Source: a bacterium (lineage in GTDB: Bacteria > UBA9089 > CG2-30-40-21 > SBAY01). Taken from it: a DNA stretch of 40,160 bases. The position numbers and the translations under genes were made by a program. How positions within the stretch are numbered: the stretch's first letter is position 1; each line of letters begins with the position of its first letter. Positions 2,332 to 35,882 of this stretch are shown piece by piece. The DNA lies in the NCBI GenBank assembly GCA_040757115.1, contig JBFLYA010000007.1, positions 1-40,160 on the forward strand, written 5' to 3'. The notes beneath the pieces were generated by a model that was not told the DNA's origin, did no database searches, and worked only from the letters and a program-made list of their open reading frames with translations.

Positions 2332-2341
2332 ATAAACTATA

Positions 2342-6072: not shown

Positions 6073-6101
6073 AAGAGTATCTAAAAAGCAGAGGTAGAGT
6101 T

Positions 6102-6435
6102 ATGAATAACGGGTTAAACGAAAAGGAGCTAAAGAATATTATTAAAACCTTACAGGGATTTTCCTCAAATTGAACAAGCGATTATATTCGGTTCACGCGC
6201 CAAAGGAAGCCATAAAAAAGGCTCTGATGTTGATCTGGCCATAAAAGGCAAGGATATTACCGAAGAAACAATCAAACATCTAAGCTTCACCCTTAACGAA
6301 GAAATCCCCTTACCATATTTTTTTGATGTAGTTCATTACGAAAGCATAAACAACCCTGATTTGATTGAACATATCAACCGTGTGGGGAAAATTATTTATA
6401 AAGGAGCAGATGGCACAAACCCGAATGAGGAATAA
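6102..6435 (+). pseudogene. Frameshifted MntA-like nucleotidyltransferase
   Basis: The ATG at 6102 follows GAGGTAGAG and opens MNNGLNEKELKNIIKTLQ, then the frame runs into TGA after seven more codons. Removing one G from the GGG near 6156 restores a complete nucleotidyltransferase of about 110 residues with the superfamily core IIFGSRAKGSHKKGSDVDLAIKG (GS-x10-DxD). Proteins of this type act as MntA antitoxins that AMPylate a HepT partner. No HepT gene follows, so the copy is orphaned and broken. It lies between cas6 and cas10 and shares the promoter at 6044. Either a real frameshift or a one-base sequence error would explain the break. Confidence 0.8.
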
Positions 6436-6471
6436 TACTATACCACAGCCCAATTTTCAAGAGGTAAAAAG

Positions 6472-6555
6472 ATGAAAGATAATAATCAAGAATATCAAAC
6501 CGTAATCTTAGCCGCACTTCTGTATGGTTTGGGAAGGAGGGAGAAATATGATTAA
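6472..6555 (+). pseudogene. Relic of the Cas10 N-terminal HD domain
   Basis: A 27-codon frame starting at the ATG at 6472 reads MKDNNQEYQTVILAALLYGL then GRREKYD. The start of Cas10/Csm1 proteins is typically EYQTVILAALLHDIGKF, where H and D are the nuclease metal ligands. Here the HD pair reads YG (one base change each would convert CAT to TAT and GAT to GGT) and the frame closes eight codons later, overlapping the start of the remaining cas10 by eight bases. The HD domain is therefore degenerate and almost entirely missing. The purine run GGAAGGAGGGAGAA inside the relic now forms the ribosome binding site of the truncated cas10. Confidence 0.7.
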
Positions 6556-8854
6556 TAATAAGCACTTAGAAGAATTATTGAAGCCGATTTTTATAGATGG
6601 ACTACTTGAAACCATCAATTGGTATAAATCAGATGCTCCCTATTATCTCAGGTCTATATTTAATCAGGTAGGTTTTAAAGATAGGGATGGGAAAGAGGCT
6701 ATTTACTATACCTCACCCTCAAGTCTTTCATCTCAGATTGTATATCCAAAGTCAGACAAAAATGGGCTAAAAAGGATTAAAAAAGAGGTGTTGGAGCAGA
6801 TAAATGAGTACTATAAAGCCTTTTCAAAAGACTACCTTGATTCTCTAAATTCTAACCAGCTACTTTTCCTGCTTGAGAAATTTGGTGGAAATGTGCCTAT
6901 AAAGGAATCAGAAGTTACATCAATCTTTGATGTATATAAAATTAAAGCAGCAAAAGCGGTTATCCAATTAAATAGAGAAAATTTAGAACATCACGATAAT
7001 CTGCTTATAAATATTGACCTATCAGGAATCCAGAGATTTATCTATAATATCTCTTCCTCTGGAGCATCAAAAAATCTCCGCTCCCGTTCCTTCTTTGTTG
7101 AACTTTTGTCTAATCATCTTATCTATAAAGTGTTAAATGCTTTAAACCTCCATTATGTAAATGTCATTATGAATGGTGGAGGCAATATTTACATACTTTC
7201 AGGTTGCCCCAAGGAAGATGAAGACCCTCTCATTAACATCGCCTATAGCCTTAACCGGTGGTTTCTAAGAGAATTCAATGGAAAACTTTATGCTGCCTTT
7301 AGCTATGTTAAATGTTCGGATGAGGAACTCAAGATGAATCTTCCAGGCTTATTAAGAGAAATTTCAAACCAGGCATTTACTAAAAAACGCATGAAGTTCA
7401 AAGCCATTATAGAAAGGGGTGAATTCCCTTTTGTGGAAGAAACTGACCCAAATTCTCAAAGTTGTGAAATTTGCTATAGAGATGATTCCACAATCAGAGT
7501 TCAGGAGGAGGAAGTCAGATGTTCCTTGTGCCAAAGACTTATTGAACTTGGTAATCAGATACCAAAAGCAAAATTTATCTACAGTTACAACAAGGATGAT
7601 AGAGAATGTCTACCGATAGAGGCCTCATATTATCTTTTGTCTGAAGTGAAAAAAGACTTAAGGTGTTTATGGGTTGTTTTTGAAGATAGAGAGGATTTTA
7701 TAGAAGACATTGAAGACTCTGCTACATATATATTTGTAAAGACATATATCACAAAGATTGGTGATTTGGATGAAACTGTGCTCAGAAACAAAGAGACAGA
7801 ATCAATGGTAAAAGAAGATATTGCCCCTCTTGAAGATATTGCTGAAAGTTCAAAAGGTGCGAAACTCATTGGAGCTTTAAGAATGGATGCAGACAATATA
7901 GGTAAAATTCTGCATTCCGGTTTTTACGAAGGTGCAAATCTTGAGCTCCTATCATCTCTTTCAAGAAATATGAATTATTTCTTTAAATTATATCTGGAAT
8001 CGTTATGTAAGGGAACAGAATCCCTTTCTACCAGGAACAACCATCGTTTAAGTGGTCATGTTATATATGCCGGAGGTGACGACCTTTTCATTCTTGGTGC
8101 ATGGGACAAGACTGCCTCTCTTGCAATTGACATTGGAAAAGCCTTTAAAAAATATACCTGCGAAAATATTGATATTGGTCTAAGTGGAGGACTTACACTT
8201 CACAATCCTAAATTTCCTGTAAGCAAGATGGCAGAGACATCAATGAGGGCTTTAAAAACAGCAAAAGAGAACCTTGAACCCTGTTGGATGTGCAGGAAGG
8301 AATGGATTACTTGCCCTCTTTATGAAATAGGTAAGTGCTTAAGAAAGGACTCGTTTGCCCCATTCTTTACCGAATATCTGTTATCTCGTAAAAAGAAATT
8401 TAGCGAAAGGTTTAGAACCCCCAAATATTCCCAAGAACCGCCAAGATTGAAACTTGCCCTCAAATGGGAAAAATATAAGAGAGAAGAAGCGAAGGTGGTT
8501 GATGAGGTTAATGAATATATCTTAAAACCTTTAGATGCATTTAAAAAAGGAAGCAATTTGCTACCACAGGGATTTTTTCATAATACCTTGAATTTGCTGG
8601 AGATATGGTATAATGAAGACCTGCTCTATCTTCCTAAAATTGTATGGGGTCTTGAAAAGGTTAAAAGAGAGTTGAAAAAGCAAAAGATTGAGAGCGAAGA
8701 GGGGAAATCTCTTTATGAACTTTATGAAATGTATCTCCATTTTAATAAAGGGATGTTTTCAACATTGTATATACCCCTTTCTTGGGTTATACTTTTAACC
8801 AGAGGAGGTGATGAAATTGATTACGAGAAAGCCAATGGAGGAAAAACTCTATGA
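6548..8854 (+). CDS. cas10: Type III-A CRISPR large subunit Cas10/Csm1 lacking the HD domain
   Basis: Large subunit of the type III interference complex. On target RNA binding its Palm domain makes cyclic oligoadenylates. I chose the ATG at 6548 (768 residues) because GGAAGGAGGG precedes it by the right distance; an ATG at 6524 is in frame but lacks a site. Visible parts: no HD domain; first Palm with NLLINIDLSGIQRFIY (about residues 151-166); a zinc-binding Cys4 (CEIC 306-309, CSLC 325-328); second Palm with the cyclase motif YAGGDDLFIL (GGDD at 509-512). A second Cys cluster at C579, C582, C589 and C597 sits in an insertion after the cyclase motif. With HD lost, DNA cutting by Cas10 is unlikely and signalling should dominate (inference). 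The 3' end overlaps csm2 by 44 bases. Confidence 0.93.
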   Translation: MINNKHLEELLKPIFIDGLLETINWYKSDAPYYLRSIFNQVGFKDRDGKEAIYYTSPSSLSSQIVYPKSDKNGLKRIKKEVLEQINEYYKAFSKDYLDSLNSNQLLFLLEKFGGNVPIKESEVTSIFDVYKIKAAKAVIQLNRENLEHHDNLLINIDLSGIQRFIYNISSSGASKNLRSRSFFVELLSNHLIYKVLNALNLHYVNVIMNGGGNIYILSGCPKEDEDPLINIAYSLNRWFLREFNGKLYAAFSYVKCSDEELKMNLPGLLREISNQAFTKKRMKFKAIIERGEFPFVEETDPNSQSCEICYRDDSTIRVQEEEVRCSLCQRLIELGNQIPKAKFIYSYNKDDRECLPIEASYYLLSEVKKDLRCLWVVFEDREDFIEDIEDSATYIFVKTYITKIGDLDETVLRNKETESMVKEDIAPLEDIAESSKGAKLIGALRMDADNIGKILHSGFYEGANLELLSSLSRNMNYFFKLYLESLCKGTESLSTRNNHRLSGHVIYAGGDDLFILGAWDKTASLAIDIGKAFKKYTCENIDIGLSGGLTLHNPKFPVSKMAETSMRALKTAKENLEPCWMCRKEWITCPLYEIGKCLRKDSFAPFFTEYLLSRKKKFSERFRTPKYSQEPPRLKLALKWEKYKREEAKVVDEVNEYILKPLDAFKKGSNLLPQGFFHNTLNLLEIWYNEDLLYLPKIVWGLEKVKRELKKQKIESEEGKSLYELYEMYLHFNKGMFSTLYIPLSWVILLTRGGDEIDYEKANGGKTL

Positions 8855-9314
8855 AGAGTGGGGGCTAAAAACCGCAGAGGGGATACGAAACAAGATATTT
8901 GAAAACTATTCAGGGGATGCCACACTTAAAACTATCCTTGATGCTGAAAAATTGGTGGTGTGCAGTTATGCTTTGGGTAGGATACTCTCAAGTCCTGAGG
9001 TTCGTCTTAAAGTTGCTCAGCTAAGAAGGTTTTACGAGGCACTCCTTACCATTAGAGCTATTATCGGCACTATCAGGAAAAAGCCAAAGGTAGATGCAGA
9101 TGAGTCGTTTAAAACTATGGTAAGGAATAAAATCCTGATGTTGAAACCTCGGCTTGCCGATGCTAAGGCAAGACAACCACGCGAGGTAACCCCTTTCTTT
9201 GAGGTAATCAATCCATTGATTGATATGGTAAGAGATATTGAGGATTACGACAGGCTCTGTGAGTTTGTCGAAGCAATAGTCGCCTACCACAGATATTGTG
9301 GGGGAAGAGACTAA
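8811..9314 (+). CDS. csm2: Type III-A CRISPR small subunit Csm2
   Basis: Helical small subunit that lines the crRNA-target duplex in the Csm complex. The product of about 167 residues has an N-terminal EWGLKTAEGIRNKIFENYSG and the Csm2-like block SSPEVRLKVAQLRRFYEALL, with a C-terminal helix ending CEFVEAIVAYHRYCGGRD. The start is uncertain. AGGAGG (8803-8808) is too close to the ATG at 8811, while an in-frame TTG at 8817 has ideal spacing and an ATG at 8835 is also possible. The gene overlaps the end of cas10. The following csm3 ATG lies 20 bases after its stop, with its own site. The identity is supported by position and sequence. Confidence 0.88.
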   Translation: MKLITRKPMEEKLYEEWGLKTAEGIRNKIFENYSGDATLKTILDAEKLVVCSYALGRILSSPEVRLKVAQLRRFYEALLTIRAIIGTIRKKPKVDADESFKTMVRNKILMLKPRLADAKARQPREVTPFFEVINPLIDMVRDIEDYDRLCEFVEAIVAYHRYCGGRD

Positions 9315-9334
9315 ACAAAAAGGAGGTATTTACT

Positions 9335-10246
9335 ATGGGAGAAAATGGACATAGGCTTTTAATGGGAAAGGTGCTTTTCGGGGGGAAAATTATTTTAGAG
9401 ACAGGACTTCATATCGGTGGGTCCCAGGAGTCTATGCAGATAGGTGGTGTTGACCTGCCAGTTATCAGGGATTCGGCAAACAACCTGCCCTATATTCCTG
9501 GAAGTTCTTTAAAGGGAAAACTAAGAAGCACCCTTGAGAAATTTGGAGAGCGGATTAAGGAGAATAAAAGGGAGAAACTCTCCTCCAACCGAAATATAGG
9601 AACATACAGAAATCCCTTATTCATCCACTGCTGTGAAGATGTCAGATATTCATTATCCTGTGATGTCTGCAGAATCTTTGGCTCAAGTGGTGATGATAGG
9701 TCTGTCCCAAAAGGGGAAAAGGCGGAAAATTTCCCATCACTATTGATGGTTAGAGACTGTCTTCTCGATGAAAGTCTGATAGAGGTCTCTTCTGTTTTTA
9801 CTGAGGTAAAGATAGAAACCGGTATAGACAGGACAACTATGTCTGCCAATCCAAGAAGGATTGAAAGGGTTTTGCCTGATAATGTGTTCAAATTTGAAAT
9901 GGTTTATACCGTTGACTCACTTGGATTTACAGGTAGAGACAAACCTTGCTTTAGAGAAGATGCCTTAAAAAGAGACCTGAATAACCTTCTAACTTGTATG
10001 GAGATTATCCAGAATGAAGGGATAGGAGGTTATACCTCTCGGGGTTATGGCAAGATAAAATTTACATTTAAAGAATTTGTGGGAAGGTCTCTGGGTTATT
10101 TTATGGGTGATGAGAGAAAGTGGAAGGGTAAAGTAGAAAAAGAGGGAGAATTTACCATAGAAGAGGCAAGGGGTGAGATAGACAATATTGTGAACTTTTT
10201 GAAAGAGGAGGCACAAGGTGTTATTGCTGGCAAGGATGAGATTTAA
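9335..10246 (+). CDS. csm3: Type III-A CRISPR backbone RAMP protein Csm3
   Basis: Repeating backbone subunit of the Csm complex, which cuts bound target RNA every six nucleotides. The ATG at 9335 follows AGGAGGT by seven bases, so I use it instead of an upstream in-frame start at 9296; this gives 303 residues. Motifs: LETGLHIGGS near residues 21-30, IGGVDLPVIRD (36-46) with the likely catalytic aspartate D40, PYIPGSSLKGKLRSTLE, and the RAMP glycine-rich loop GIGGYTSRGYGKIKF. A Cys-rich piece (HCCEDVRYSLSCDVCRIFGSS) matches the Cys motif before CRIFG in many Csm3 proteins. The C-terminal 60 residues after the loop are longer than usual and charged. The gene overlaps csm4 by 29 bases. Confidence 0.93.
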   Translation: MGENGHRLLMGKVLFGGKIILETGLHIGGSQESMQIGGVDLPVIRDSANNLPYIPGSSLKGKLRSTLEKFGERIKENKREKLSSNRNIGTYRNPLFIHCCEDVRYSLSCDVCRIFGSSGDDRSVPKGEKAENFPSLLMVRDCLLDESLIEVSSVFTEVKIETGIDRTTMSANPRRIERVLPDNVFKFEMVYTVDSLGFTGRDKPCFREDALKRDLNNLLTCMEIIQNEGIGGYTSRGYGKIKFTFKEFVGRSLGYFMGDERKWKGKVEKEGEFTIEEARGEIDNIVNFLKEEAQGVIAGKDEI

Positions 10247-11186
10247 AAGGGCTATATCCATTGGAGGTGGAGATTTATCCCTTGGGGAAGGATTTACCGG
10301 TATTCTTCATTCAGACACAATCTTTAGTGGTATTGCCAATAAGTTGGCTGAGATACCCAGCAATTACGATGGTGGATATTCTATAAAGGAATTAATTAGC
10401 AATTTGAACACTGATTCTCCTCCCTTTAGAATTTCCTCAGCCTTCCCTTATTTTATGGATGAATATTACCTTCCCACCCCATACGGGACAGGTGAACTGT
10501 ATCTGGAGAAATTAAAAGATGTTCCCCTCATTAAGCTCTCTGATTTTCTTGAGCTTGCCTCAGGCAACTACGAAAGAATCAAAAAGAAACCACTCAAAGA
10601 TTCTGTTAATGAGCTGATGGTAAGTTTTACTGCCCCGAGGGTGACCATTGATAGAATAACTACCTCTACAAATATCTATCAGACTACCGGATGGCTGATG
10701 AATCAAGACTGTGGGCTTTACTTTTTAATAGACCTTAAAGATGAATTACTCAAGGATAAACTTTTGCTGTGTATAAGGCTTCTGGGTGAAAGTGGAATAG
10801 GTGGTGATAGAAGCATCGGTTATGGTATTTTTGATTCAGAGCTTATTGAGATAGATAATTTGCCTGAATGGTCTGAGTTATTTCAAGAAAGAGGCGGGAA
10901 AAACACTTCTTATTATTCCCTTTCACTCTGCTATCCCTCAAACAATGATGAGGCAAAAGAGGCTATATCGTATAATATTCTTTCCAGAAAGGGCTGGATC
11001 TTCTCAAGCTCCTCTATAAAACAGAGCAAACGCAGAGAATGTAAGATGTTTGCCGAGGGCTCATTATTTAAAAGCCCAATAAAAGGTCAGATGGCAAAGG
11101 TAGCTCCCTCAAGGTTTCGCCAGGAGGAACATGAGGTCTATAGATACGGACTTGGGATGATGGTTGAAATTGTTAATCATTATTAA
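10218..11186 (+). CDS. csm4: Type III-A CRISPR protein Csm4
   Basis: RAMP subunit that binds the 5' handle of the crRNA and joins Cas10 to the backbone. The product is 322 residues from a GTG at 10218, which follows GAGGAGG by six bases; an ATG at 10236 is an alternative. Typical Csm4 features are the first strand LARMRFKRAISIGGGDLSL, LHSDTIFSGIANKL, SSAFPYFMDEYYLPTP, the RAMP loop GESGIGGDRSIGYG, and a C-terminal RYGLGMMVEI. It overlaps csm3, showing translational coupling. The next gene in this position would normally be csm5, but no RAMP protein follows. The following gene encodes a PD-(D/E)XK-like protein instead. Confidence 0.9.
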   Translation: MLLLARMRFKRAISIGGGDLSLGEGFTGILHSDTIFSGIANKLAEIPSNYDGGYSIKELISNLNTDSPPFRISSAFPYFMDEYYLPTPYGTGELYLEKLKDVPLIKLSDFLELASGNYERIKKKPLKDSVNELMVSFTAPRVTIDRITTSTNIYQTTGWLMNQDCGLYFLIDLKDELLKDKLLLCIRLLGESGIGGDRSIGYGIFDSELIEIDNLPEWSELFQERGGKNTSYYSLSLCYPSNNDEAKEAISYNILSRKGWIFSSSSIKQSKRRECKMFAEGSLFKSPIKGQMAKVAPSRFRQEEHEVYRYGLGMMVEIVNHY

Positions 11187-11196
11187 GGAGTCTTTT

Positions 11197-12096
11197 ATGG
11201 GGATTGATGCTTTAAAGTTAGATGATTATATAAAGGATTGTTTAATCCTTAAGGCAAGGTTGGAAAATGACTTTAAAACTTCGTATGAGAAACTCCTATG
11301 CTCAACAATAGACATTAAATTTACTGAGTTAAATAAAAAAATAGAACCTTTTAAAACATTTAATGATGCAAATAGAAAAATTGAAGAGGCAGGCGCACAT
11401 TTGTGCGTTATAGAAAAGGATATTCTACAGTTTGCTGGCCTTGATGCAGAGAAAACTGAGAATTTATTTAAACCAATAAAAGAATCCGTAGAGAAGATAA
11501 TTAAGAATTTTCAAAAGGGGTTAGCCATCATTAACACCGAGACAGTCCGATTATTTAAAGAAATCAGTGAATGCTCACCAGGAGACGGTAAAAGCTTTCA
11601 AGATCTTGTTCTTGAATTCTTTGATGTCATATTTATAGATGAAATAAATAGATATAGATATGGAGAGGAAGAACCAAAAGAGCTAAAAAAAAGAGAATTT
11701 AAGATTTTAAAAAGGCTTGATGGATTTTATACTAAGTGTGATTCCTTTGATGCGAAACAAAGAATAGGCTTTGAGTTTCAGGGATTAATTATAGAGTGTA
11801 AAAACAAAAGACCAGATATAAATGATTTGATGCAATGCTTTAAATATACTCTTTATTTTCAAGATACAGAATTATCTAAGGTGCCATTGACATTGTTGGT
11901 GGGTAGGGATTCACCAAGAGAAAATAGTTCAATCTGGGAGATAAATAGGAAAATATTTGATAAGTCAATAGCCAATGAAACAAGGCTTATTTTAATTCTG
12001 GATAGGAAAGATTTAGGTGAAATGAAGGAAAATAAAGTTAAAGGTAGAGATTCAGCTATGGTTATAAAAGATAAGGTGAAAAAATTCAGCTCCTAA
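11197..12096 (+). CDS. Coiled-coil PD-(D/E)XK nuclease-like protein in the csm5 position
   Basis: Not a known Cas protein as far as I can tell. I use the ATG at 11197, which follows AAGGAG by six bases (299 residues). Residues 1-125 are charged and helical, probably coiled coil, with no RAMP, CARF or SAVED features that I can see. From about 130 the sequence fits the restriction-endonuclease-like fold: GKSFQDLVLEFF (E140), KRLDGFY (D175), GLIIECKNK (E200 and K202) and a following helix with Q213. All core PD-(D/E)XK positions appear intact, so it could cut nucleic acid. It begins ten bases after csm4 and ends ten bases before the CARF gene, so it is part of the operon. Possible roles are a substitute cap subunit, an ancillary nuclease, or an unrelated guest; none can be decided from sequence. 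Confidence 0.7.
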   Translation: MGIDALKLDDYIKDCLILKARLENDFKTSYEKLLCSTIDIKFTELNKKIEPFKTFNDANRKIEEAGAHLCVIEKDILQFAGLDAEKTENLFKPIKESVEKIIKNFQKGLAIINTETVRLFKEISECSPGDGKSFQDLVLEFFDVIFIDEINRYRYGEEEPKELKKREFKILKRLDGFYTKCDSFDAKQRIGFEFQGLIIECKNKRPDINDLMQCFKYTLYFQDTELSKVPLTLLVGRDSPRENSSIWEINRKIFDKSIANETRLILILDRKDLGEMKENKVKGRDSAMVIKDKVKKFSS

Positions 12097-12106
12097 GGAG
12101 GAAAAT

Positions 12107-13090
12107 ATGGATAATTTAGAAAGTCTCTTTGAAATTTGGAAACAGAGGAATTGCAATCTGAATTTTTATTTTCAGCACATATTTAATCAGGCATTAGAGG
12201 CTCTTGCCAATAATACCACAAGTAAAATAAGAGAAGAAATAGGTAAAGGCAGATATAAAGCCTTATTCACTCCGGTTGGTTACTCTATAGAAAATATTGC
12301 CCTTATCTCTGGCTTTATTAAACCAAAGTATTTGATGATGGCTTTCTCTGAAAAAACCAGGAGTTTCCACAGAAGACATATAGATTTGGTTAAAGAGAAT
12401 ATAAAAAATATGTGTCCAGATATGAAAATTGATGAGGTTATGATTCTCAGTGATGACCAAAAAATTACCGAACAAAAAATTGTAAGCTGGATTGAAGAAA
12501 TGAATGCAGGATACAACCTTTCAAATAACCAATTGGCTATTGATCTAACCGGTGGAACAAAGCCAATGTCTATCGGTGCTTATAATGCCGCTGTATCCTT
12601 TAAAGATGTAGAGGCATTCTATCTGTGGACTGATTATGACGAAGATACTCAGATGCCAATTCCTGGCACTGAAAGGCTTGTTCAGCTAATAAAAGAAAAA
12701 TCTCAGTTAGATGAAGACTTCGTATTTGTTATTATGCCATTTAATGAGGAATTTAATAATGTTTATGACCGTATAAAGGAAGTAGTTGAAAGTTTAGGGA
12801 TGAGGTGCGAAAGGGTAGATGAACAGATTTTTTTCGGTGGGATTATGGATAAGATTAAAGAAAACTTGATAAAGGCAAGGATTATTATTGCTGAGTTATC
12901 AGAAAAGAATCTGAATGTATACTATGAGCTTGGACTATCTCATGGATATGAAAAAAGGGTAATAATGCTTACCCAGGATGTTAACAATTTGCCATTTGAT
13001 TTGCGACACTTAAGGATGGTAATTTATAATAAAAATAATCTTTTTGGGTTAAAAGAAAAACTTAGAAACGAGATTAAATCTGCTCTTTGA
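12107..13090 (+). CDS. CARF-like sensor plus TIR-like effector (type III ancillary protein)
   Basis: Predicted signal-activated effector of the CRISPR system. The 327-residue protein has two parts. Residues about 50-190 look like a CARF domain: FTPVGYSIENIALISGFIKP, then LAIDLTGGTKPMSIGAYNAA with the DLTGGTK motif (146-152) found in Card1/Can-type and Csx1-like CARF proteins, then an FYLWTDYD strand. Residues about 203-325 match the TIR-like/deoxyribosyltransferase-like fold: FVFVIMPFNEEFNNVYDRIK, ARIIIAELSEKNLNVYYELG with the conserved glutamate E274, and PFDLRHLRMVIY. The known CARF-TIR effector Cat1 degrades NAD+ on cyclic tetra-adenylate binding, and a similar role here is inference. The ATG follows TAAGGAGGAAAAT. 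It is the last gene before the CRISPR array. Confidence 0.82.
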   Translation: MDNLESLFEIWKQRNCNLNFYFQHIFNQALEALANNTTSKIREEIGKGRYKALFTPVGYSIENIALISGFIKPKYLMMAFSEKTRSFHRRHIDLVKENIKNMCPDMKIDEVMILSDDQKITEQKIVSWIEEMNAGYNLSNNQLAIDLTGGTKPMSIGAYNAAVSFKDVEAFYLWTDYDEDTQMPIPGTERLVQLIKEKSQLDEDFVFVIMPFNEEFNNVYDRIKEVVESLGMRCERVDEQIFFGGIMDKIKENLIKARIIIAELSEKNLNVYYELGLSHGYEKRVIMLTQDVNNLPFDLRHLRMVIYNKNNLFGLKEKLRNEIKSAL

Positions 13091-20100: not shown

Positions 20101-20175
20101 GCGCCTGTAGCTCAGTATGGACAGAGCAGCGGTTTCCTAAACCGCGTGTCGGAGGTTCGAGTCCTCTCAGGCGCA
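20101..20175 (+). tRNA. tRNA-Arg (anticodon CCT)
   Basis: A complete cloverleaf. The acceptor stem GCGCCTG pairs with CAGGCGC and is followed by discriminator A; the D arm is TAGCTCAGTATGGACAGAGCA; the anticodon stem is GCGGT/ACCGC with loop TTCCTAA, so the anticodon is CCT (reads AGG). The T arm is GGAGGTTCGAGTCCTCT. The 3' CCA is not encoded. It starts four bases after a palindromic repeat. Confidence 0.95.
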
Positions 20176-20190
20176 CTTAAATATTTTAAT

Positions 20191-21292: not shown

Positions 21293-21437
21293 TATAGTAG
21301 TCATTAACGAAAATTTCTCATAGAACAGATATAGCAACATGGTTGAGGGTTTATAGTTTATAGTTGATAGTTTCATAGACTATCAACCATCAACTATCAA
21401 CAATACTAATGTGAACTTTTGGTTAATACTTACTATA
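21293..21437. mobile_element. MITE-like element, copy B1
   Basis: The ends are TATAGTAGTCATTAACGAAA and, inverted, TATAGTAAGTATTAACCAAA. The interior has TAGTTGATAGTTTCATAGAC hairpins. It is the inverse of 29191-29383. It stops four bases before the ribosome binding site of the fumarase-kinase gene. Confidence 0.65.
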
Positions 21438-21456
21438 GTTACAAAGGAAGATTTTG

Positions 21457-23214
21457 ATGAAAGAAATTAATTTGCCTTTGAATAAAGAGATAGTTAACTC
21501 GCTAAAAGTAGGTGATGAGATATTACTTAATGGCTGGTTCTACACCGCCAGGGATAAGGCACATCAAAGATTGGTTAAGAGCCTGGAGAAAAAAGAAAAA
21601 TTGCCAATTGATTTAAAAGATATAACTATTTATTACACAGGTCCTACAGCCGCAAAATCAGGAGAAATTATAGGTTCAGCCGGTCCGACGACCAGCTCTC
21701 GTATGGATGTATTCACACCAATACTTTTGAAAAATGGTGTGATTGGAACAATTGGCAAAGGAAAAAGGTCAAAAGAGGTTATTTCAGCAATGAAAGAATA
21801 TGGTTGTATTTACTTTATTACGATTGGAGGAGCTGGAGCATGGCTATCACAAAAAATTACACAAGCAAAAGTAATTGCTTACCCTGATTTGGGAACAGAG
21901 GCAATATTTCAATTTAAAGTAAAGGATTTTCCGGTTATTGTTGCTATTGATTCACGAGGTAATTATATTTATCAGAACGGTCCACTGACTGAAAATTCAG
22001 CATATCTATCTTCACTACAAAAAGATAAATCAGAGTTTGGAGACATCAGTCAGATAATAACAGTTTTTTTTAACCAAAAGAAAGAACTTGCTTTGGCAAA
22101 TAAACAACTTCAAGAAGCAAATCAGGCAAAGTCGCAATTCCTCGCCAATATGAGCCATGAACTCAGGACTCCTCTCAATTCCATCATCGGCTTCAGCGAG
22201 GTTTTATTAGAGGAGACCTTTGGTAGCCTCCAGGAAAAACAAAAAAAATATCTCTCTAATATCCTTACCAGTGGCAAACACCTGCTCATACTTATCAATG
22301 ATATTTTAGACCTTTCCAGGGTAGAGGCAGGTAAGGTAGAACTTAAGATTGAGGAGATTCTACCCAAAGAGATATTCAATGAGTGCCAGACATTAATTAA
22401 GAATATGGCATCAAAGAAGGGTATCTCGCTTGACTTTAAGGTTGAAGGCATCTCAACCATAAAAGCAGACCCGGTCAGGTTTAAGCAAATAATGTATAAT
22501 CTTCTCTCAAATGCGATTAAGTTCACACCGGAAAGAGGAAGGGTAGATGTCCTCGCAAGACCAGTAGACGAAATGGTGCAAATTTCTGTCCAGGATACAG
22601 GAATTGGAATTGCCAGGGAAGATCAAGAAAAGGTCTTTGAGGAATTTAAGCAAATAGATAGCAGTTATGCCAAGCAATATGCAGGGACAGGACTTGGTCT
22701 GCCCTTAACCAGAAAATTGGTAGAACTGCATGGAGGGAAAATCTGGTTAGAAAGCGAGCCTGGCAAGGGAAGCACCTTTACTTTTACCATACCCGAGAGG
22801 GTAGAGAGCAAACAGCAGGAAGCAGAATACAAAGTGCAGAAATTAGAAGATAAACCTACTATATTAGTCGTGGAAGATGAATCACAATCCAGGGAACTCT
22901 TGACCATTTATCTTGAAAAGGCAGGGTATCAGGTAGTTTATGCCGTAGATGGCGAAGAAGCTATCCGGAAGGCTAAAGAGATTAAGCCCTCTGCTATTAC
23001 ATTAGATCTTATCCTTCCCAAGAAAAGTGGTTTTGAAGTAGTGAAAGAATTAAAAAGCCTTCCTGAAACTAAAGAAATTCCTATAATCATTATCTCTATG
23101 ACAGATAATAAAGAATTAGGATTTAGCCTTGGAGCATCTGATTATTTGTTAAAACCTGTAGATAAGAACGAATTACTCTTAAAATTGAAAAAACATAGCG
23201 TTATGAAAAAATGA
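21457..23214 (+). CDS. Fumarase-beta domain fused to histidine kinase and receiver
   Basis: A hybrid signalling protein of 585 residues with an unusual sensor. Residues 1-176 match the beta subunit/C-terminal domain of class I fumarase and tartrate dehydratase: [81 protein letters not shown]. These include the TTxxRMD, ARDxAH and GKGxRS segments that help bind the substrate carboxylates in class I fumarases. After a coiled linker comes a kinase with phospho-His H234 ([10 protein letters not shown]), N-box N352, G-box DTGIGIA and GTGLGL, then a receiver (about 467-583) with phospho-Asp D517. No alpha subunit with the Fe-S cysteines is in the window, so catalysis is unlikely; ligand sensing is inferred. 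ATG 21457 follows AAAGGAAG. Confidence 0.88.
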
Positions 23215-23250
23215 AAGAGAAATATATTGCTTTCTCGCTATAAAAATTTC

Positions 23251-23279
23251 TTGCAATAATTTTCTGCGTATGCTATACT
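23251..23279 (+). promoter_or_regulatory. Sigma-70 promoter upstream of the CheY-like gene
   Basis: TTGCAA (23251-23256), a 17-base spacer and TATACT (23274-23279). The receiver gene starts at 23323 after GGAGGGAAAAA. Confidence 0.65.
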
Positions 23280-23322
23280 ACAAATAGATAGTAAATAAAA
23301 AAAACATATATGGAGGGAAAAA

Positions 23323-23694
23323 ATGGCAAAAGAAAAGATACTGGTTGTTGATGATGAACCATTGAATAGAGAATTGGCTAAAGACCTGCTTGAGGTGGCA
23401 GGTTATGTCGTTTTTGAGGCCGGTGATGCTCATGAGGCAATAGAGCTGGCAAACAAGGAGAGGTTTGACCTTGTCTTGATGGATGTTCAACTTCCTGGCA
23501 TGGATGGACTTTCTGCCATAAACATAATCAAAGGAAATTCTATGAACAAAGATATGCCGATTGTAGCCTTGACTGCTTATGCCATGAAAGGAGATAAAGA
23601 AAGGATAGAATCAGCAGGTTGTGATGGGTATCTTACCAAACCTATTAATACTAAAGAATTTGCTCAAAGTGTTGCCGGGTTTTTGAGGGTTTAG
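23323..23694 (+). CDS. Single-domain response regulator
   Basis: A stand-alone receiver of 123 residues with acid pocket VVDDEP, phospho-Asp D54 in LVLMDVQLPGMDG, the switch Thr in VALTAYAMKGD and the conserved lysine in GYLTKPINT. The sequence style (LTAYAMKGD, GCDGYLTKPI) is that of DivK-like or hybrid-kinase-type receivers, so it likely relays phosphate from the kinases on either side. The ATG follows TGGAGGGAAAAA. It has its own promoter and is followed after 86 bases by the receiver-phosphatase gene, with which it may be cotranscribed. Confidence 0.9.
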   Translation: MAKEKILVVDDEPLNRELAKDLLEVAGYVVFEAGDAHEAIELANKERFDLVLMDVQLPGMDGLSAINIIKGNSMNKDMPIVALTAYAMKGDKERIESAGCDGYLTKPINTKEFAQSVAGFLRV

Positions 23695-23780
23695 AAGCAG
23701 AAAAGATTGAAGAATTTGTGTTGGAAAAGATAGATATTTCAGTTGAAGATATAAATAACTTTGTGGGCGAGGTTAAAATT

Positions 23781-24977
23781 ATGGGAACGAGAAAATCAAA
23801 GGTTTTAGTAGTTGATGATGAAGAATTTAATCGGGATTTGCTTGAGGCTATTCTGGTCACGCAATATGAGGTCATTATGGCTTGTGATGGATATGAGGCA
23901 CTGATAAAGGTTAATCAAGAGCCAATAGATATAATTTTATTAGATATTATGATGCCAGGATTAGATGGATATGAGGTCTGCAGGCAATTGAAGGAAAAAA
24001 AGGAGACAAGCTTCATTCCGATAGTAATGGTTACTGCATTAAGGGAGAAGGAAGATAGGATAAAGGGACTTGAGGCAGGAGCAGACGATTTTTTGACCAA
24101 ACCCATAGACCGGGCTGAGGTTTTAGCCAGGGTAAAATCACTGCTTCGCATTAAGCATCTAAATGATGACTTAACCGAGATTAACGCCACTTTAGAACAG
24201 AGGGTGAAAAAACAAGCAGAGGAATTGTGGCGGACTACCGCTGAAAAAGAACGACTCCAGAAAGAATTAGAGATTGCACGAAATATCCAGATGAGTTTCT
24301 TGCCGCAGATTATTCCTCAGATAGAAGGATTTGAGTTAGCCGCTATTAGCATCCCGGCAAAGGAAGTTGGAGGCGACTTCTATGATTTTATCCCGATTAC
24401 CGAAGATAGATGGGGATTAACCATAGGTGATGTCTCAGGAAAAGGTATTCCTGCGGCTTTGTTTATGGCATTATCAAAAACCGTTGTCAGAACTAATACC
24501 ATAGCCAATCCTCAACTACTTGATGCCATAAGTAAGGTAAATGAATTTATAGCTGAAGAGGCTACGGCAAATACTATGTTTGTTACTTTGTTTTATGCTA
24601 TCCTGGATACGAAGAAAAAGAATTTGCTTTACATTAATGCCGGACATAACCCACCCTTGCTTATTAGACAGGATGAGGTTGCAATCTTAGAAGGGAAAGG
24701 GATGGCACTTGGGGTCATTCCTGCGGTTGAGCTGGAAGAGAAGGAAATTTGGCTTAAAAAAGGTGATATGGTAGCCTTTTACACCGACGGCGCCACTGAG
24801 GCAATCAATGAACAAGAAGAACAATTTGGTGAGGAAAATTTGATACAGGTGCTTCGTGAGAATCAACAAATGTCAGCACAAGAAATTATTAACCGAGTTC
24901 AACAGGCAGTAACTATCTTTTCTGGGACTCAATCTCAGTTCGATGATATTACTTTGATGATTTTAAAGGTTGATTGA
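23781..24977 (+). CDS. Receiver-PP2C phosphatase (RsbU/SpoIIE type)
   Basis: Phosphoserine phosphatase controlled by phosphorylation. It is 398 residues from the ATG at 23781, which follows GCGAGGTT; an in-frame TTG at 23718 would add 21 residues. A receiver fills about 5-125 (D55 in IILLDIMMPGLDG, lysine in FLTKPID), a coiled linker 135-175 (NATLEQRVKKQAEELWRTTA), and a SpoIIE-type PP2C domain from about 185 to the end. Metal-binding motifs are VGGDFYDF, LTIGDVSGKGIPAALFMAL, YINAGHNPPLL and AFYTDGATEA, and the last conserved aspartate is in SQFDDITLMIL. Such proteins dephosphorylate STAS-domain anti-anti-sigma factors; a STAS gene and an RsbW-like gene lie 8-9 kb downstream. Confidence 0.93.
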   Translation: MGTRKSKVLVVDDEEFNRDLLEAILVTQYEVIMACDGYEALIKVNQEPIDIILLDIMMPGLDGYEVCRQLKEKKETSFIPIVMVTALREKEDRIKGLEAGADDFLTKPIDRAEVLARVKSLLRIKHLNDDLTEINATLEQRVKKQAEELWRTTAEKERLQKELEIARNIQMSFLPQIIPQIEGFELAAISIPAKEVGGDFYDFIPITEDRWGLTIGDVSGKGIPAALFMALSKTVVRTNTIANPQLLDAISKVNEFIAEEATANTMFVTLFYAILDTKKKNLLYINAGHNPPLLIRQDEVAILEGKGMALGVIPAVELEEKEIWLKKGDMVAFYTDGATEAINEQEEQFGEENLIQVLRENQQMSAQEIINRVQQAVTIFSGTQSQFDDITLMILKVD

Positions 24978-25144: not shown

Positions 25145-26428
25145 ATGCAGTCTCAAGATAAAGATTTTGCTTTATATACCTTGAATTACGCCACAAAATT
25201 GATTTACTCAGCTACAGATTTAAAAGGGCTGATAGAGGTGGCAATTGATATGTTTTTAGAACTGGCAGAAGCCAATTGCGGTTCTATAATATTACTTGAC
25301 TCTCAGGATTCTAGTCTAAAAATAGCCGTGGTAAAACGCCAGTATTCAACCATTTATAATTACCCGGAGAAAAGATTAGAGCCTGCTCCCAAATTAATTT
25401 TAGAGGTAATTAATGAAACTAAACCTTATTTCACCAATAATCCCGCTCAATTTCAAAACATAGGCGATGATTCAGGAAAAGATGCAAACTCTTTACTCTG
25501 TATTCCATTACTTGGTCAGGAAAAGGCGATAGGAGTCGTCTGCCTTTACTCCCAATGCAATGAATACGACCAGGATACGATTAATCTTATTTCTACATTA
25601 GCCACACAGGTTGGTGTCAATATAGAGAATGTTCGATTATATAAGGAGTTGGAGGAATGGGCAAAAGTGCTTGAACTCCGCGTCGCAGAACGGACTAAGG
25701 AACTGGCAGAGGCAAACGAAGAATTAAGAAAAATAGACCAGGCTAAATCAGATTTCCTCTCTACCGCGGCACACGAATTGAAGACACCTATGACCTCAAT
25801 CAAGGCTATTGCTCTGACATTGGTTAATAACCCTGATGAGGATATTGCTATCAGAACAGAATTTTTATCCCTTATTTCTTCAGAGGTTGACAGGTTGACC
25901 AGATTAATCAATGATATTCTGAATTTATCTAAAATAGAGGCGGGTATGCTGGAATGGGATATGAACCAAATATCTCTAAGAGATGTAATTAATCAGTCTA
26001 TTACCAATATCAATCCAGTAGCCTGCCAGAAGAAGATAAAGATTCAAATGAATATACCAGAGGGATTACCAAACATCACTGGTGATTATGAGAGATTGAT
26101 GCAGGTCGTGATTAATCTGCTTAGCAATGCCATTAAATTTACGCCAGAGGGAGGTGAGATAGAAGTAAGGATAAAATATAGACACCAACCCGAAGAAATA
26201 TTGCAAGTAAGTGTAACTGATAGCGGAGTAGGTATCGCCAGGGAGGATTTAGAGAAGGTATTTGATAAATTTAAACAGGTAGGTGGTAAAAAAACACAGG
26301 GCACAGGACTGGGACTGACTATCTGTAAGCAGATTATAGAACATCATGGCGGAAAGATATGGGTGGAAAGTCAATTGGGGATGGGTGCAACATTCCATTT
26401 TACTATCCCGGTCAGGAATAATCCATAG
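25145..26428 (+). CDS. GAF-domain histidine kinase
   Basis: A soluble sensor kinase of 427 residues, starting at an ATG after AGGAGGAAAGG. A GAF domain spans about residues 10-170 (GSIILLDSQ, SLLCIPLLGQEKAIGVVCLY, LATQVGVNIENVRLY), then a coiled coil (AERTKELAEANEELRKIDQA), the dimerisation/phospho-His domain with H210 in STAAHELKTPM, and a HATPase with N-box [13 protein letters not shown]1-box DSGVGIA and G2-box GTGLGL. No membrane segment is present, so it senses a cytoplasmic signal. The GAF resembles that of the HD-GYP protein at 33525 (both have LNYATK at the start), suggesting duplication of the sensor part. No receiver is fused; partners may be the receivers at 23323 or 29481. Confidence 0.92.
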   Translation: MQSQDKDFALYTLNYATKLIYSATDLKGLIEVAIDMFLELAEANCGSIILLDSQDSSLKIAVVKRQYSTIYNYPEKRLEPAPKLILEVINETKPYFTNNPAQFQNIGDDSGKDANSLLCIPLLGQEKAIGVVCLYSQCNEYDQDTINLISTLATQVGVNIENVRLYKELEEWAKVLELRVAERTKELAEANEELRKIDQAKSDFLSTAAHELKTPMTSIKAIALTLVNNPDEDIAIRTEFLSLISSEVDRLTRLINDILNLSKIEAGMLEWDMNQISLRDVINQSITNINPVACQKKIKIQMNIPEGLPNITGDYERLMQVVINLLSNAIKFTPEGGEIEVRIKYRHQPEEILQVSVTDSGVGIAREDLEKVFDKFKQVGGKKTQGTGLGLTICKQIIEHHGGKIWVESQLGMGATFHFTIPVRNNP

Positions 26429-31765: not shown

Positions 31766-33109
31766 ATGCCACAAAAGATATTAATTGTTGATGATGACCA
31801 AACAATTCGGAAAATAGGTGAGTATAATCTAAAAAAAGCAGGTTATGAAGTAATCACTGCCAACAATGGCGAGGAAGGAATAAGAAAGATTGAGACCGAA
31901 AAACCTGACCTGGTAATCCTGGATCTGATGATGCCTGTTATGGATGGATATGAGGTTTGTCAAAAGATTAAGGAAGATTGGTTAAGAAGTCATATCCCGA
32001 TAATCATCTTATCGATTAAGAAGGATGTGGATGATAAAGTAAAAGGGTTAAGGGTTGGTGCAGATGACTACCTGGCAAAGCCTTTTGACCCGCAGGAGTT
32101 ATTGGTAAGGGTAGAGGCAAATCTGCGCCGCATTAAACGGGATATGCAGGCTAACCCATTAACAGGCTTACCAGGGAATGTCCCGATTAATAACAAGATT
32201 ACAGAGGTAATAAAACAAGGAAGAAGTTTTTGTATCCTTTATATTGACCTGGATTACTTTAAGGCATTTAATGATACCTATGGCTATGAGCGGGGAGATG
32301 AGGTTATCCAATTTACCTCCCAGACGATTATTCAAACCATAAGAGAGTTGGGAAATTCAACAGATTTTGTAGGTCATATAGGTGGTGATGATTTTGTTGT
32401 CCTGACTACACCGACTAAGGTTGATTCTATCTGTAATGAAATTATTAAAGCATTTGACATTGGTATTCTCAATTTCTATGATGAAGAAGATAGGGAAAGA
32501 GGTTTTCTTCTCTGTCCAGACCGTAAAGGACAACCAAATAAATTTCCATTAATCTCTATCTCGATTGCCTGTGTAACTAATGAGCAGAACAAATTTACGC
32601 ATCTGGGTGAGATAAGTGCCGCGGCGGCTGAAATGAAAAAATACGCTAAATCTATCGCCGGTAGTAGCTATGTCAAAGATAGAAGAAAAATGTTAAATTT
32701 CAAGACTACGGCTAAATTGGAAAATTTACCTTTGATGAGTAACTTTATTAATCAAGCAACACAAAAATTTGGGCTGGATAAGGATACAGGATTTGATATT
32801 CAAGTTGCTGTTGAAGAGGCGTGTGAAAATATAGTTGAACATAGCTACCCAAAAGGTAGTGAAGGCTCTATTGAGATTAATTGTGAATACAAAGATAATA
32901 ATTTTATCGTTAAAATCAAGGATTATGGTCAATCATTTGACCCCAATACCATTCCTGAACCGAATTTAGAGGCTAAATTAGAAGACCGAACTACAGGTGG
33001 ATTAGGTATCTACTTTATGAAAAGATTGATGGATGAAATCAATTACTATTTTGACCCGAAAGAAGGCAATGAACTGATAATGGTCAAAAGATTAAATGCA
33101 AAAAGGTAA
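31766..33109 (+). CDS. Receiver-GGDEF-RsbW-like ATPase triple-domain protein
   Basis: A 447-residue fusion of three signalling modules. Residues 1-120 are a receiver (D53 in VILDLMMPVMDG, lysine in YLAKPFDP). Residues about 125-312 are a GGDEF-like domain: NPLTGLPGNVPI, LYIDLDYFKAFNDTYGYERG DEVI, and GHIGGDDFVVL with GGDDF (206-210) in place of GGDEF; the metal-binding residues look intact, so cyclase activity is possible but not certain. Residues about 320-445 form an RsbW-like anti-sigma ATPase domain: DIQVAVEEACENIVEHSYP with the N-box and KDYGQSFDP, TTGGLGIYFMKRLMDEI. The STAS gene follows 59 bases later, which fits partner switching. ATG 31766 follows AGAGGT. Confidence 0.9.
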   Translation: MPQKILIVDDDQTIRKIGEYNLKKAGYEVITANNGEEGIRKIETEKPDLVILDLMMPVMDGYEVCQKIKEDWLRSHIPIIILSIKKDVDDKVKGLRVGADDYLAKPFDPQELLVRVEANLRRIKRDMQANPLTGLPGNVPINNKITEVIKQGRSFCILYIDLDYFKAFNDTYGYERGDEVIQFTSQTIIQTIRELGNSTDFVGHIGGDDFVVLTTPTKVDSICNEIIKAFDIGILNFYDEEDRERGFLLCPDRKGQPNKFPLISISIACVTNEQNKFTHLGEISAAAAEMKKYAKSIAGSSYVKDRRKMLNFKTTAKLENLPLMSNFINQATQKFGLDKDTGFDIQVAVEEACENIVEHSYPKGSEGSIEINCEYKDNNFIVKIKDYGQSFDPNTIPEPNLEAKLEDRTTGGLGIYFMKRLMDEINYYFDPKEGNELIMVKRLNAKR

Positions 33110-33168
33110 TCGATTATGGGTAATACTGAGTACCGGTTACCAATTATAAACTACAAGGAGGAAAAGAT

Positions 33169-33501
33169 ATGAAGGTAGAAATTAAAGGAATTCAGGAAAT
33201 TACCGTAATGAATCTTACTGGTCGAATAGATGCCGCTACGGCTCCCCAATTAGAAGAAGAATGGCATAACCTTATGACACAGGAAAAGAACAAGGTGGTC
33301 ATTAACTTTAAAAGGGTTGATTATATCTCCAGCGGCGGATTACGGGTGCTATTACTTGTGGCTAAAGAGATGAAGGCTCGAGATGGAATTTTAAGGTTTT
33401 GTCATTTAGACCCCAATGTCTATAAAATCTTCAAATTGGCGGGCTTTACCTCTATCTTTAATATCTACGAGACAGAAGAAGAGGCAGTCCGGGATATTTA
33501 G
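33169..33501 (+). CDS. STAS-domain anti-anti-sigma factor-like protein
   Basis: A 110-residue RsbV/SpoIIAA-like protein. The core reads MNLTGRIDAATAPQLEEEW, VVINFKRVDYISSGGLRVLL and IFKLAGFTSIFNIYETEEEA. The serine in ISSGG (residues 54-55) is at the site phosphorylated by RsbW-like kinases. Its ATG follows AGGAGGAAAAG. The neighbours are the RsbW-like domain protein upstream and a GAF-HD-GYP gene 23 bases downstream; the PP2C phosphatase at 23781 could reset it. The target may not be a sigma factor, since none is nearby. Confidence 0.93.
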   Translation: MKVEIKGIQEITVMNLTGRIDAATAPQLEEEWHNLMTQEKNKVVINFKRVDYISSGGLRVLLLVAKEMKARDGILRFCHLDPNVYKIFKLAGFTSIFNIYETEEEAVRDI

Positions 33502-33524: not shown

Positions 33525-34755
33525 ATGATAGAAATTAAGGACATTATTCAAGCCGTTGAATCTATCATTGAAGGAAAGACTAATTCAATTAATCTTTCGG
33601 CTCAAGGTGAGGCAGGAGAACTAATCTGTGCTCTAAATAAAATGCTTTCTTCATTGCAAACAAAAAATATCGAAGTTGAGGAAAGATTAAATGAAAAACT
33701 CCTTTCCTTGTATGAGTTAAATTACGCCACTAAGATGATAAGTTTCACTATGGAGATGAAGGAATTATTGGACATCTCCATTGATATGATTAGTGATTTA
33801 GCTCGGGTAGAGAAGGCTTCGATTATGCTGATTAATCCCAGAAACCGAGAATTGGTAGTAGAGATTGTCAAAGAAAGTGGAAAGATTATCTATCCAGAAA
33901 CAGTTTTAAGACCACCACACCAAATTCTTTCTGAAGTTATTAATGAAGGCAAGGTTTATCTTTCCTATGAGCAGTTTGAAGATTTAGGGGATGGATTAAT
34001 TAATGAGATAACTTCTTTTCTTTCTTTTCCCATAATGGGCAAGGAACAAGTTTTAGGGGTAGTTAATCTTTACAATTGTCTAAACAAGAAGGAATTCAGC
34101 CAGGATGAGATGAATCTAATCTCTACTTTAATCTCCCAGGTGGGTATTTCTATTGAAAATGCCCGGTTATTTATCAGGATAAAAGAACTCTTCTGGGACA
34201 CCGTGAGGGCTTTAGCCTCAACCATAGATGCCAAAGACCCATATACTTATGGTCATTCGGAAAGGGTAGCAGAATATTCAGTAGAGATTGCTAAAAGATT
34301 AGGATGGAGTGTGCAAGAACAAGAGGAGGTGCAATTAGCCGGGCTTTTACATGATATTGGAAAAATTGGCATACCAGATGATATTCTTCACAAACCCGGT
34401 GGTCTGGATGACAAAGAATTCGAAAAGATAAAACTCCATCCCCTCAAAGGTAGCAAAATTATGGAGCATATCAGTCAACTGGAAAAAGTCCTTCCCGGGA
34501 TGAAACATCATCACGAACGATTCTGTGGAGGTGGGTATCCAGATAATTTAAAGGGTGATGAAGTTCCTTTAATCGGCAGGATAATCTGTGTGGCAGATGC
34601 CTATGATGCTATGACCTCAAATCGTGCCTATCGAAATAAAATGACTACTCAGGAGGCTTTATCGAGAATAAAAAATGCCTCAGGCACACAATTTGACCCG
34701 CAAGTTGTGGAGGCATTTTTGAAAGTAGTTGGGGGGGGAGGGGGTTGTTATATGA
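33525..34755 (+). CDS. GAF-HD-GYP cyclic-di-GMP phosphodiesterase-like protein
   Basis: Residues about 1-50 are helical; a GAF domain (about 60-215: ASIMLINPR, SFLSFPIMGKEQVLGVVNLY, ISQVGISIENARLF) is followed by an HD-GYP domain (about 222-405) with YGHSERVAEYSVEIAKRLG, LLHDIGKIGIPDDILHKPG, HPLKGSKIM, GMKHHHERFCGGGYPDNLKG and ADAYDAMTSNRAYR. The HD pair and metal-binding residues are present, so hydrolysis of c-di-GMP is likely, although the eponymous GYP is present as GGYP. As written, the frame does not stop here but runs on to 35882 through a G8 tract at 34731-34738. With seven Gs the frame ends at TGA 34753-34755, overlapping the ATG of the radical SAM gene, so I split the two. Confidence 0.85.
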
Positions 34756-35882
34756 AATTGACACGGCGTGAATTTTTTAAGAAAATCTCAATATTAAGTT
34801 TAGCCTTAGCCAGTTGTCCTCTTTTGCCTAAAATTGGGTCTGGTGCAGAAATTTCAGGTAGAAAAGGCTACATTTCACCCCGGGAAGCACGAAATTATTT
34901 AGTATTAGAAGATGGTGTGGTGCAGTGTCAAAATTGTCCACGAAGGTGCACGCTTGGTCCGGGACAAAGGAGTTTTTGCAGGGTAAGAGAGAATCAAAAT
35001 GGGAAATTAATGACGCTTGTCTATGGAAATCCGTGTGCGGTTCATATTGACCCAATCGAGAAAAAACCTTTCTTCCATTTTTTGCCAGGAACATCAGTTT
35101 TTTCATTAGCCACGGCAGGTTGCAATTTACGATGTCAATTCTGTCAAAATTGGCAAATCTCACAAGCAACGCCTGAGGAAACAATAAATTTCCCTCTTAG
35201 CCCGGAATTAATCGTTCAAGCAACATTATCGGAAAAATGTCCTTCGCTGGCATTTACTTATACCGAACCAAGTGTCTTTTTCGAGTATATGCTGGATACC
35301 TGTAAATTAGCCAGAAAACAAAAAATAATGACTACTTATCATTCAAATGGATTTATTAATCCCACTCCATTGAAAGAGTTATGTAAATATTTGAATGCGG
35401 CGTGTATTGACTTGAAAGGATTTACAAATGAATATTATCAACAGATGTCTTCAGCCTGGATTGCCCCGGTCAAAAATACTCTCGAAACCCTTAAAAAAAA
35501 TAATATTCATCTTGAGATTGTAACTTTAGTTGTGCCAAATAAAAATGATGATTTAGAGATAAATGAAAAGATGTGTAAATGGATTAAAGAAGAATTAGGA
35601 GATGATGTCCCGTTACATTTTTCCCGTTTTTATCCACATTATAAATTAGAACATCTACCGCCAACACCTGTCCACAAATTAGAAACACTTCGCCAGGTAG
35701 CTTTTTCTGCCGGATTAAAATATGTCTATATTGGCAATGTCCCCGGTCATCCCGGAGAAAATACCCATTGTCCCAAATGTTCTAAAATAATAATAAAAAG
35801 GTTTGGGTTTAAAATCATTGAGAATAATCTTGCGGAGGGCAAATGTAAATTCTGTAAGCAACCAATCTCTGGAAAATGGTAA
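34752..35882 (+). CDS. AmmeMemoRadiSam-type radical SAM protein (AmrS-like) with a Tat-like signal
   Basis: The ATG at 34752 follows GGAGGGGG and opens a 376-residue protein. It begins MKLTRREFFKKISILSLALA with a twin-arginine motif (RREFFK) before a hydrophobic stretch, so export by Tat is possible. Then come a Cys-rich segment (CQNCPRRC at 59-66, C76), the radical SAM cluster CNLRCQFC (C124, C128, C131) and PSLAFTYTEPSVFFEYMLD, AACIDLKGF, HLEIVTLVVPNKND. The C-terminus has CPKC and CKFC, a likely zinc ribbon. This order matches the pyruvate-formate-lyase-activating-like AmrS family, of uncertain substrate. Its AmrA/AmrB partners are not seen. Its stop codon lies inside the end of the repeat element that follows. 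As printed it is in frame with the HD-GYP gene. Confidence 0.82.
   Translation: MKLTRREFFKKISILSLALASCPLLPKIGSGAEISGRKGYISPREARNYLVLEDGVVQCQNCPRRCTLGPGQRSFCRVRENQNGKLMTLVYGNPCAVHIDPIEKKPFFHFLPGTSVFSLATAGCNLRCQFCQNWQISQATPEETINFPLSPELIVQATLSEKCPSLAFTYTEPSVFFEYMLDTCKLARKQKIMTTYHSNGFINPTPLKELCKYLNAACIDLKGFTNEYYQQMSSAWIAPVKNTLETLKKNNIHLEIVTLVVPNKNDDLEINEKMCKWIKEELGDDVPLHFSRFYPHYKLEHLPPTPVHKLETLRQVAFSAGLKYVYIGNVPGHPGENTHCPKCSKIIIKRFGFKIIENNLAEGKCKFCKQPISGKW

Follow-up and report, generated by a model that had tools for sequence, protein, structure and literature searches.

To our knowledge, the enzyme inputs of histidine kinases are either dedicated sensor enzymes, as in the HoxBC/HoxJ system, or separate proteins that bind to the kinase, as in the FumC/PdhS pair. 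In the HoxBC hydrogenase, Fe-S changes are described as a likely part of the signalling to the kinase HoxJ (PMC6978683), and class I fumarases are described as enzymes with an oxygen-sensitive [4Fe-4S] cluster (PMC10602362). We analyzed a stretch of 40,160 nucleotides from a bacterial genome (the window, from here on), in which a histidine kinase looks like a subunit of what is apparently the only fumarase of the genome, in a fusion so far known only from its genus. The fusion is real and conserved in the genus, and it most likely marks a fumarase in which the beta subunit doubles as a kinase.

Domain Organization of the Fused Protein

The fused protein is encoded by a single reading frame, open from the ATG at 21457 to a stop ending at 23214, with no internal stop. 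Its features in the window are as follows.

21443..21450, plus strand: Shine-Dalgarno-like AAAGGAAG, 6 bases before the ATG at 21457 (read from the sequence)
21457..23214, plus strand: fused gene, fumarase beta - linker - HisKA - HATPase - receiver, 585 residues plus stop (open reading frame, Pfam)
21469..21978, plus strand: class I fumarase beta domain (Fumerase_C), residues 5-174 (Pfam, Foldseek)
21979..22053, plus strand: linker, residues 175-199, mostly with model confidence below 50 (AlphaFold2 model, with a thin alignment here)
22054..22146, plus strand: kinase lead-in helix, residues 200-230 (AlphaFold2 model, comparison with sister kinases)
22126..22332, plus strand: HisKA, residues 224-292, E 2.4e-24, with the H-box NMSHELRTP at 231-239 (His 234) (Pfam, motif reading)
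22468..22800, plus strand: HATPase_c, residues 338-448, E 5.6e-33, GTGLGL present (Pfam, motif reading)
22861..23187, plus strand: receiver (Response_reg), residues 469-577, E 8.9e-22 (Pfam, motif reading)

An earlier note on this DNA had read residues 1-176 as a fumarase beta subunit that continues into a linker, a full kinase and a receiver, and both parts of that description were recovered. Pfam places Fumerase_C at residues 5-174 with E 1.2e-57, covering positions 30-204 of the 205 in the profile (195.1 bits for a cut-off of 22.2), and TIGR00723 scores 180.4 bits over a cut-off of 145.15. The NCBIfam model PRK06842, "Fe-S-containing hydro-lyase", matches residues 2-176 with 233.8 bits, narrowly below its full-protein equivalog cut-off of 238. 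The carboxylate-binding segments that the note had seen as preserved correspond to residues 30-36 (TARDKAH), 76-84 and 100-105.

In the same chain, HisKA, HATPase_c and a receiver follow with their catalytic motifs kept, including a HATPase_c stretch of 14 letters in addition to GTGLGL, and Asp 474, Glu 475, Asp 517 and Lys 566 within the usual receiver motifs; we take these residues and those of the kinase motifs to have their customary roles. By its domains and motifs the protein is a hybrid histidine kinase, with phosphotransfer predicted. No sensor domain other than Fumerase_C was found in it with Pfam.

Conservation of the Fusion in the Genus

The source genome (G000) is a metagenome-style, fragmented assembly of 462 contigs, 99.87% complete, and beyond this circumstance no support was found for a chimeric assembly or a decayed gene. 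The one other genome of the genus compared (G001) carries, on its own contig, an equivalent ORF of 586 amino acids, 97% identical and with an alternative TTG start one codon earlier. A block of 1865 bases that includes the junction (window 21435-23299) is 97.8% identical between the loci, and the block at 23308-24973 is 96.5% identical; upstream of the gene they share a tRNA-Arg (20101-20176), while the surrounding sequence differs. Since the second genome holds the fusion at such identity on a separate contig, an assembly join at the fusion point is very unlikely, and the one that the earlier note had considered between 21950 and 22130 was not borne out. With this second copy, an uninterrupted frame and conserved motifs, an artefact of any kind is very unlikely. 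The fusion was thus confirmed as real and conserved across the genus, in both of its genomes.

Between these genomes, dN/dS is 0.094 for the beta domain and 0.265 for the kinase, a difference based on few changes and not significant (Fisher P 0.60 for beta against the rest), to which we give no weight.

The Beta Domain Resembles Enzyme Subunits

The beta domain was compared with 25 unfused betas (25 of the 80 loci fetched), at the 56 columns in which 90% or more of them agree. The fused domain differs at 3 of these columns, and the ordinary betas at 0-6; with respect to 14 betas of the phylum, it departs at 1 of 29 conserved columns. Conservation within the range of ordinary betas rules out a degenerate domain.

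An AlphaFold2 model was built with 25 of the 80 beta loci as alignment, which covers the beta domain only, so the kinase part is poorly modelled: over the full length the mean pLDDT is 56 and the pTM 0.38, and only the beta domain is modelled well (block pLDDT mostly 83-96, weaker near residues 61-80 and 121-130). Residues 175-195 have pLDDT below 50, the linker being modelled as disordered. All 26 Foldseek matches at E <= 0.001 were fumarases, with TM scores by target length of 0.82 and 0.84 for the structures 2isb and 5dni, respectively.

In class I fumarases, as in the Leishmania enzyme, the substrate lies between the cluster borne by alpha and residues of beta. In a gap-free alignment, R32, T78 and R82 of the fused protein fall on chain positions 457, 503 and 507 of that enzyme, which is consistent with their being the counterparts of R421, T467 and R471, the mutants named in PDB titles, given a deduced numbering offset of 36. 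These three Leishmania residues are presumably active-site residues.

A Single Alpha Subunit Gene on Another Contig

The earlier note had also stated that the Fe-S alpha subunit was absent here, and had suggested a search for it in the rest of the genome. This holds for the locus but not for the genome, where one alpha gene was found.

Contig C34 of the source genome, 19345-20145: lone, intact alpha subunit gene, on a different contig from the fused beta

Its product matches the NCBIfam model PRK06246, "fumarate hydratase", with 368.5 bits for a cut-off of 276, and keeps the three conserved Cys columns. At 71 conserved alpha columns it departs at 8, the alphas of two other genomes of the family (G002 and G003) at 6 and 5, and eight other sequences at 0-9. 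A Fumerase_C search of the source genome, at its 99.87% completeness, found no second beta subunit, the fused domain being the only match. A class II fumarase (PF10415) was detected in none of the 19 genomes of the phylum, the source genome included, whereas 11 of 14 control genomes were positive.

The alpha gene is also present in G002 and G003, under purifying selection (dN/dS 0.198), and no Fumerase_C was found in these genomes, 96% and 88% complete. Either the beta is missing from the assemblies or alpha works without it; if beta is truly absent, the argument from a single beta weakens, and alpha may have another role in the family. In both genomes the intact alpha gene lies behind a gene that by eye is LeuD-like (L037, 1374-2216, and L038, 5110-5952).

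Regarding the metabolic context, a malate dehydrogenase is present in the source genome. Its only two PF02910 matches are L-aspartate oxidase and AprA, with no flavoprotein of succinate dehydrogenase or fumarate reductase seen among them, which speaks against a full TCA cycle. Because of this, the fumarase may instead process fumarate that purine, arginine or aspartate metabolism releases.

Phylogeny of Both Subunits

Trees were built for 96 of 96 betas and for 89 of 98 possible alphas, 9 being dropped because they gave no match or were too short. In the alpha tree, the sequences of the four family genomes form a clade (support 0.998) that joins loci L045, L047, L048, L055 and L066 and, one node further out, L046; support is 0.977 for the clade with L046 and only 0.02 for the node directly uniting the family alphas with the first five loci. 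In the beta tree, the two fused domains group with L045 (0.898), then with L046, L047, L048 and L055 (0.849), and then with L066 (0.607). Alpha and beta are adjacent in each of these six loci, five of which are titled Omnitrophota/Omnitrophica and one Firestonebacteria.

Alpha and the fused beta share their affinity for the same six outside loci in separate trees, a result that is partly built in for beta, as the outside loci were picked by beta similarity, but not for alpha. The simplest reading of these trees is one ancestral alpha-beta pair that was later split.

Distribution of the Fusion

Fumerase_C was found in 16 of the 19 genomes of the phylum. The kinase fusion is present in 2 of these 16, those of the genus, so the architecture search that the earlier note had proposed found it in G001; two others carry a fusion to nucleoside diphosphate kinase (NDK; G012 and G018), and the remaining 12 are without a long extension, as judged by frame length. 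Alpha lies beside beta in 12 of the 16, and on a separate contig in G000, G001, G013 and G014. In the latter two, the betas are short (160 amino acids) and unfused (L014 and L016), on a contig that differs from that of alpha, and a split pair without a kinase fusion may exist there.

Outside the phylum, none of the 80 nearest-relative loci showed a kinase fusion among the matches listed, and an alpha was found at 72 of them on the same basis. Nor was the fusion seen in the 134 beta-bearing genomes among 392 Planctomycetota sampled. At 16 distinct places with long or odd frames, no more than about 41 residues separate the domain from the frame end; at 34 further places a stop comes at most 23 codons past the domain in 33, and one frame enters the contig end (L197). 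A 35th place (L198) is cut by the contig, and the other frames, of at most 290 amino acids, are too short for a kinase. In a search centred on Omnitrophota the domain was found in 5 of 9 genomes, none of them with a long frame.

The two NDK fusions belong to two other families of the phylum.

L008 (G012), 1498-2451, plus strand: beta-NDK fusion, Pfam NDK E 8.9e-53
L006 (G018), 1064-2061, minus strand: beta-NDK fusion, Pfam NDK E 3.9e-54

In both, NDK is attached at the C-terminus of beta and the alpha gene is directly upstream, so the C-terminus of beta tolerates fusion. A literature search gave nothing relevant on beta-NDK fusions, which suggest that fumarase beta repeatedly serves to carry other domains in this phylum. 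Regarding the kinase fusion, the earlier note knew of no described case, and we likewise found none of a fumarase or Fumerase_C with a histidine kinase in the open-licence literature, which is not proof of absence.

Origin of the Kinase and Neighbouring Genes

Similarity to sister kinases begins at about residue 199-219 of the fused protein. A second kinase of G001 (C250, L142) is 76% identical over residues 208-449 and has an N-terminal CHASE2 domain; a kinase of G002 is 78% identical over residues 219-407, and its N-terminal part gives no Pfam match at 0.001. As the sister kinases share the core from that point and carry other N-termini, the beta domain occupies the place of other sensor regions. 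A kinase of G003, 71% identical over 324-584, starts close to the edge of its contig, and the genes after it encode a receiver and a receiver-SpoIIE protein, in the same order as in the window. Its N-terminal gap falls exactly at the beta position, so that a beta domain may have been lost in assembly. The stretch upstream of this truncated kinase reads by eye as a transposase end, with no Pfam confirmation.

Downstream of the fused gene, the window contains the following genes.

23323..23694, plus strand: stand-alone receiver protein of 123 amino acids (Pfam; order kept in G001 and G003)
23718..24977, plus strand: receiver - SpoIIE-type phosphatase (Pfam SpoIIE E 2.3e-50; order kept in G001 and G003)
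25145..26428, plus strand: GAF - histidine kinase, adjoining the module, membership uncertain (Pfam)

The first is likely a partner of the fused kinase, and the second the likely output of the module. At 31766-33501 a receiver-GGDEF-HATPase_c_2 protein adjoins a STAS protein, a pair that possibly forms a partner-switch module and a target for the phosphatase at 23718.

Elsewhere in the window, Type III-A CRISPR genes (Cas6, Cas10/Csm1, Csm2, RAMP and Csm4) are found at 4490-13090, where positions 12107-13090 encode a Card1-type CARF protein whose C-terminal part is TIR-like by eye. An ORF of 785 amino acids at 33525-35882 reads first as GAF/HD-GYP and then as a radical SAM protein, and a signal-peptide-like stretch stands in mid-protein after a glycine run; this join is possibly due to stop-codon loss, a frameshift or a sequence error.

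Proposed Role of the Fused Protein

From the fusion in both genomes of the genus, a single detected beta, a single lone alpha, no class II fumarase found, intact motifs and a matching phylogenetic affinity of alpha and beta, all of them read from sequence, we infer docking of alpha in trans, an active enzyme, its coupling to the kinase, a signal and an output. The fused protein would be at once a hybrid kinase and the beta subunit of the one fumarase detected, alpha would dock on it in trans, and the assembled enzyme would be the sensor, a proposal to which we give an even chance of being right. The separately encoded alpha, bearing the [4Fe-4S] cluster, would dock on the fused beta domain, and the docked enzyme would be the input module of the kinase. 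Binding of alpha, integrity of the cluster or occupancy by fumarate or malate could then alter the arrangement of the beta domains on the kinase dimer and with it autophosphorylation. The phosphate would move onto the receiver of the same chain, and the stand-alone receiver and the receiver-SpoIIE phosphatase encoded downstream would probably take it from there. More tentatively, and with a chance somewhat below even, the catalytic or cluster state of the holoenzyme, alpha on the kinase being the only detected fumarase, would directly gate the phosphorelay to the SpoIIE-type phosphatase. Several points weaken the main reading: the disordered linker of the model offers no clear rigid path for a signal, G002 and G003 keep an alpha with no beta found, the dN/dS contrast lacks significance, and in the trees one node has support of 0.02 and the outside loci were picked by beta similarity.

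The earlier note had interpreted the protein as an enzyme domain recruited to sense an acid. The recruitment stands, as a whole beta domain takes the place of a sensor in a complete hybrid kinase; its removal from the enzyme fits poorly with one intact alpha, no second Fumerase_C and no class II fumarase, and its action as a lone binder fits poorly with a fused beta conserved like ordinary enzyme betas. That the beta domain has become independent of the enzyme and serves by itself as a cytoplasmic sensor domain binding dicarboxylates is therefore unlikely in our view, even if related kinases carry other N-termini at its position, such as CHASE2, the carboxylate-contact residues are kept, and the pair may have separated in the family, as the alphas of G002 and G003 without a detected beta would indicate. 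The retained alpha of the source genome has no other beta, the columns are conserved at the level of an enzyme subunit, beyond what a half-site sensor needs, and alpha holds the cluster and with it one half of the active site. As the substrate lies between both subunits, sensing is more probably the work of the assembled enzyme than of beta by itself.

Instead of an acid concentration, the assembled enzyme could also report to the kinase the status of its [4Fe-4S] cluster, and thereby oxygen, superoxide or the supply of iron. The conserved cysteines of alpha, the oxygen sensitivity described for class I fumarase clusters (PMC10602362) and the probable role described for Fe-S changes between HoxBC and HoxJ (PMC6978683) are in line with this, but nothing here favours cluster over substrate as the signal, and we consider it quite unlikely. 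Finally, the fusion might be neutral for signalling, with beta serving in the fumarase and a kinase that is constitutive or takes its input elsewhere. Both parts might have been joined by chance, for co-expression or for localisation, as the fusions to NDK, an unrelated metabolic enzyme, in two other families and the linker modelled as flexible would allow; the protein has no other sensor domain, both genomes of the genus retain the fusion, and no kinase motif is missing, so we regard neutrality as improbable.

Comparison with Known Systems

Among the closest known systems are the two-subunit class I fumarases (for example Methanocaldococcus jannaschii, 7xky/5dni; Archaeoglobus fulgidus beta, 2isb), with which the beta domain agrees along its whole length in sequence and modelled fold, and which it also resembles in having a separate alpha subunit in the genome. 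Unlike in these enzymes, the C-terminus of beta carries a hybrid kinase, and alpha is encoded on another contig than beta. With the CHASE2 kinase of G001, of the same family, it shares the core, the N-terminus being fumarase beta here instead of CHASE2. We take the fumarate sensor DcuS to be a membrane kinase partnered by transporters, with no enzyme subunit inside, and it differs in this from the fused protein; it is alike in that, with DctA or DcuB, the kinase is associated with C4-dicarboxylate status (PMC6978683). PdhS of Brucella abortus is likewise a histidine kinase physically linked to a fumarase (PMC2957392), but its partner FumC is a class II enzyme, unrelated in sequence to the beta domain and bound non-covalently. 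In HoxBC/HoxJ of Ralstonia eutropha, a metalloenzyme is also the input of a cytoplasmic histidine kinase (PMC6978683), HoxBC being a dedicated, separate sensor protein, whereas the kinase studied here covalently includes a subunit of the one metabolic fumarase detected. The fused fumarase beta-kinase would thus extend the idea of enzyme-coupled kinases, to the extent that its architecture suggests a path from enzyme state to kinase output; if the enzyme is active, no separate sensor would be needed to read the flux or the cluster state of a central hydratase.
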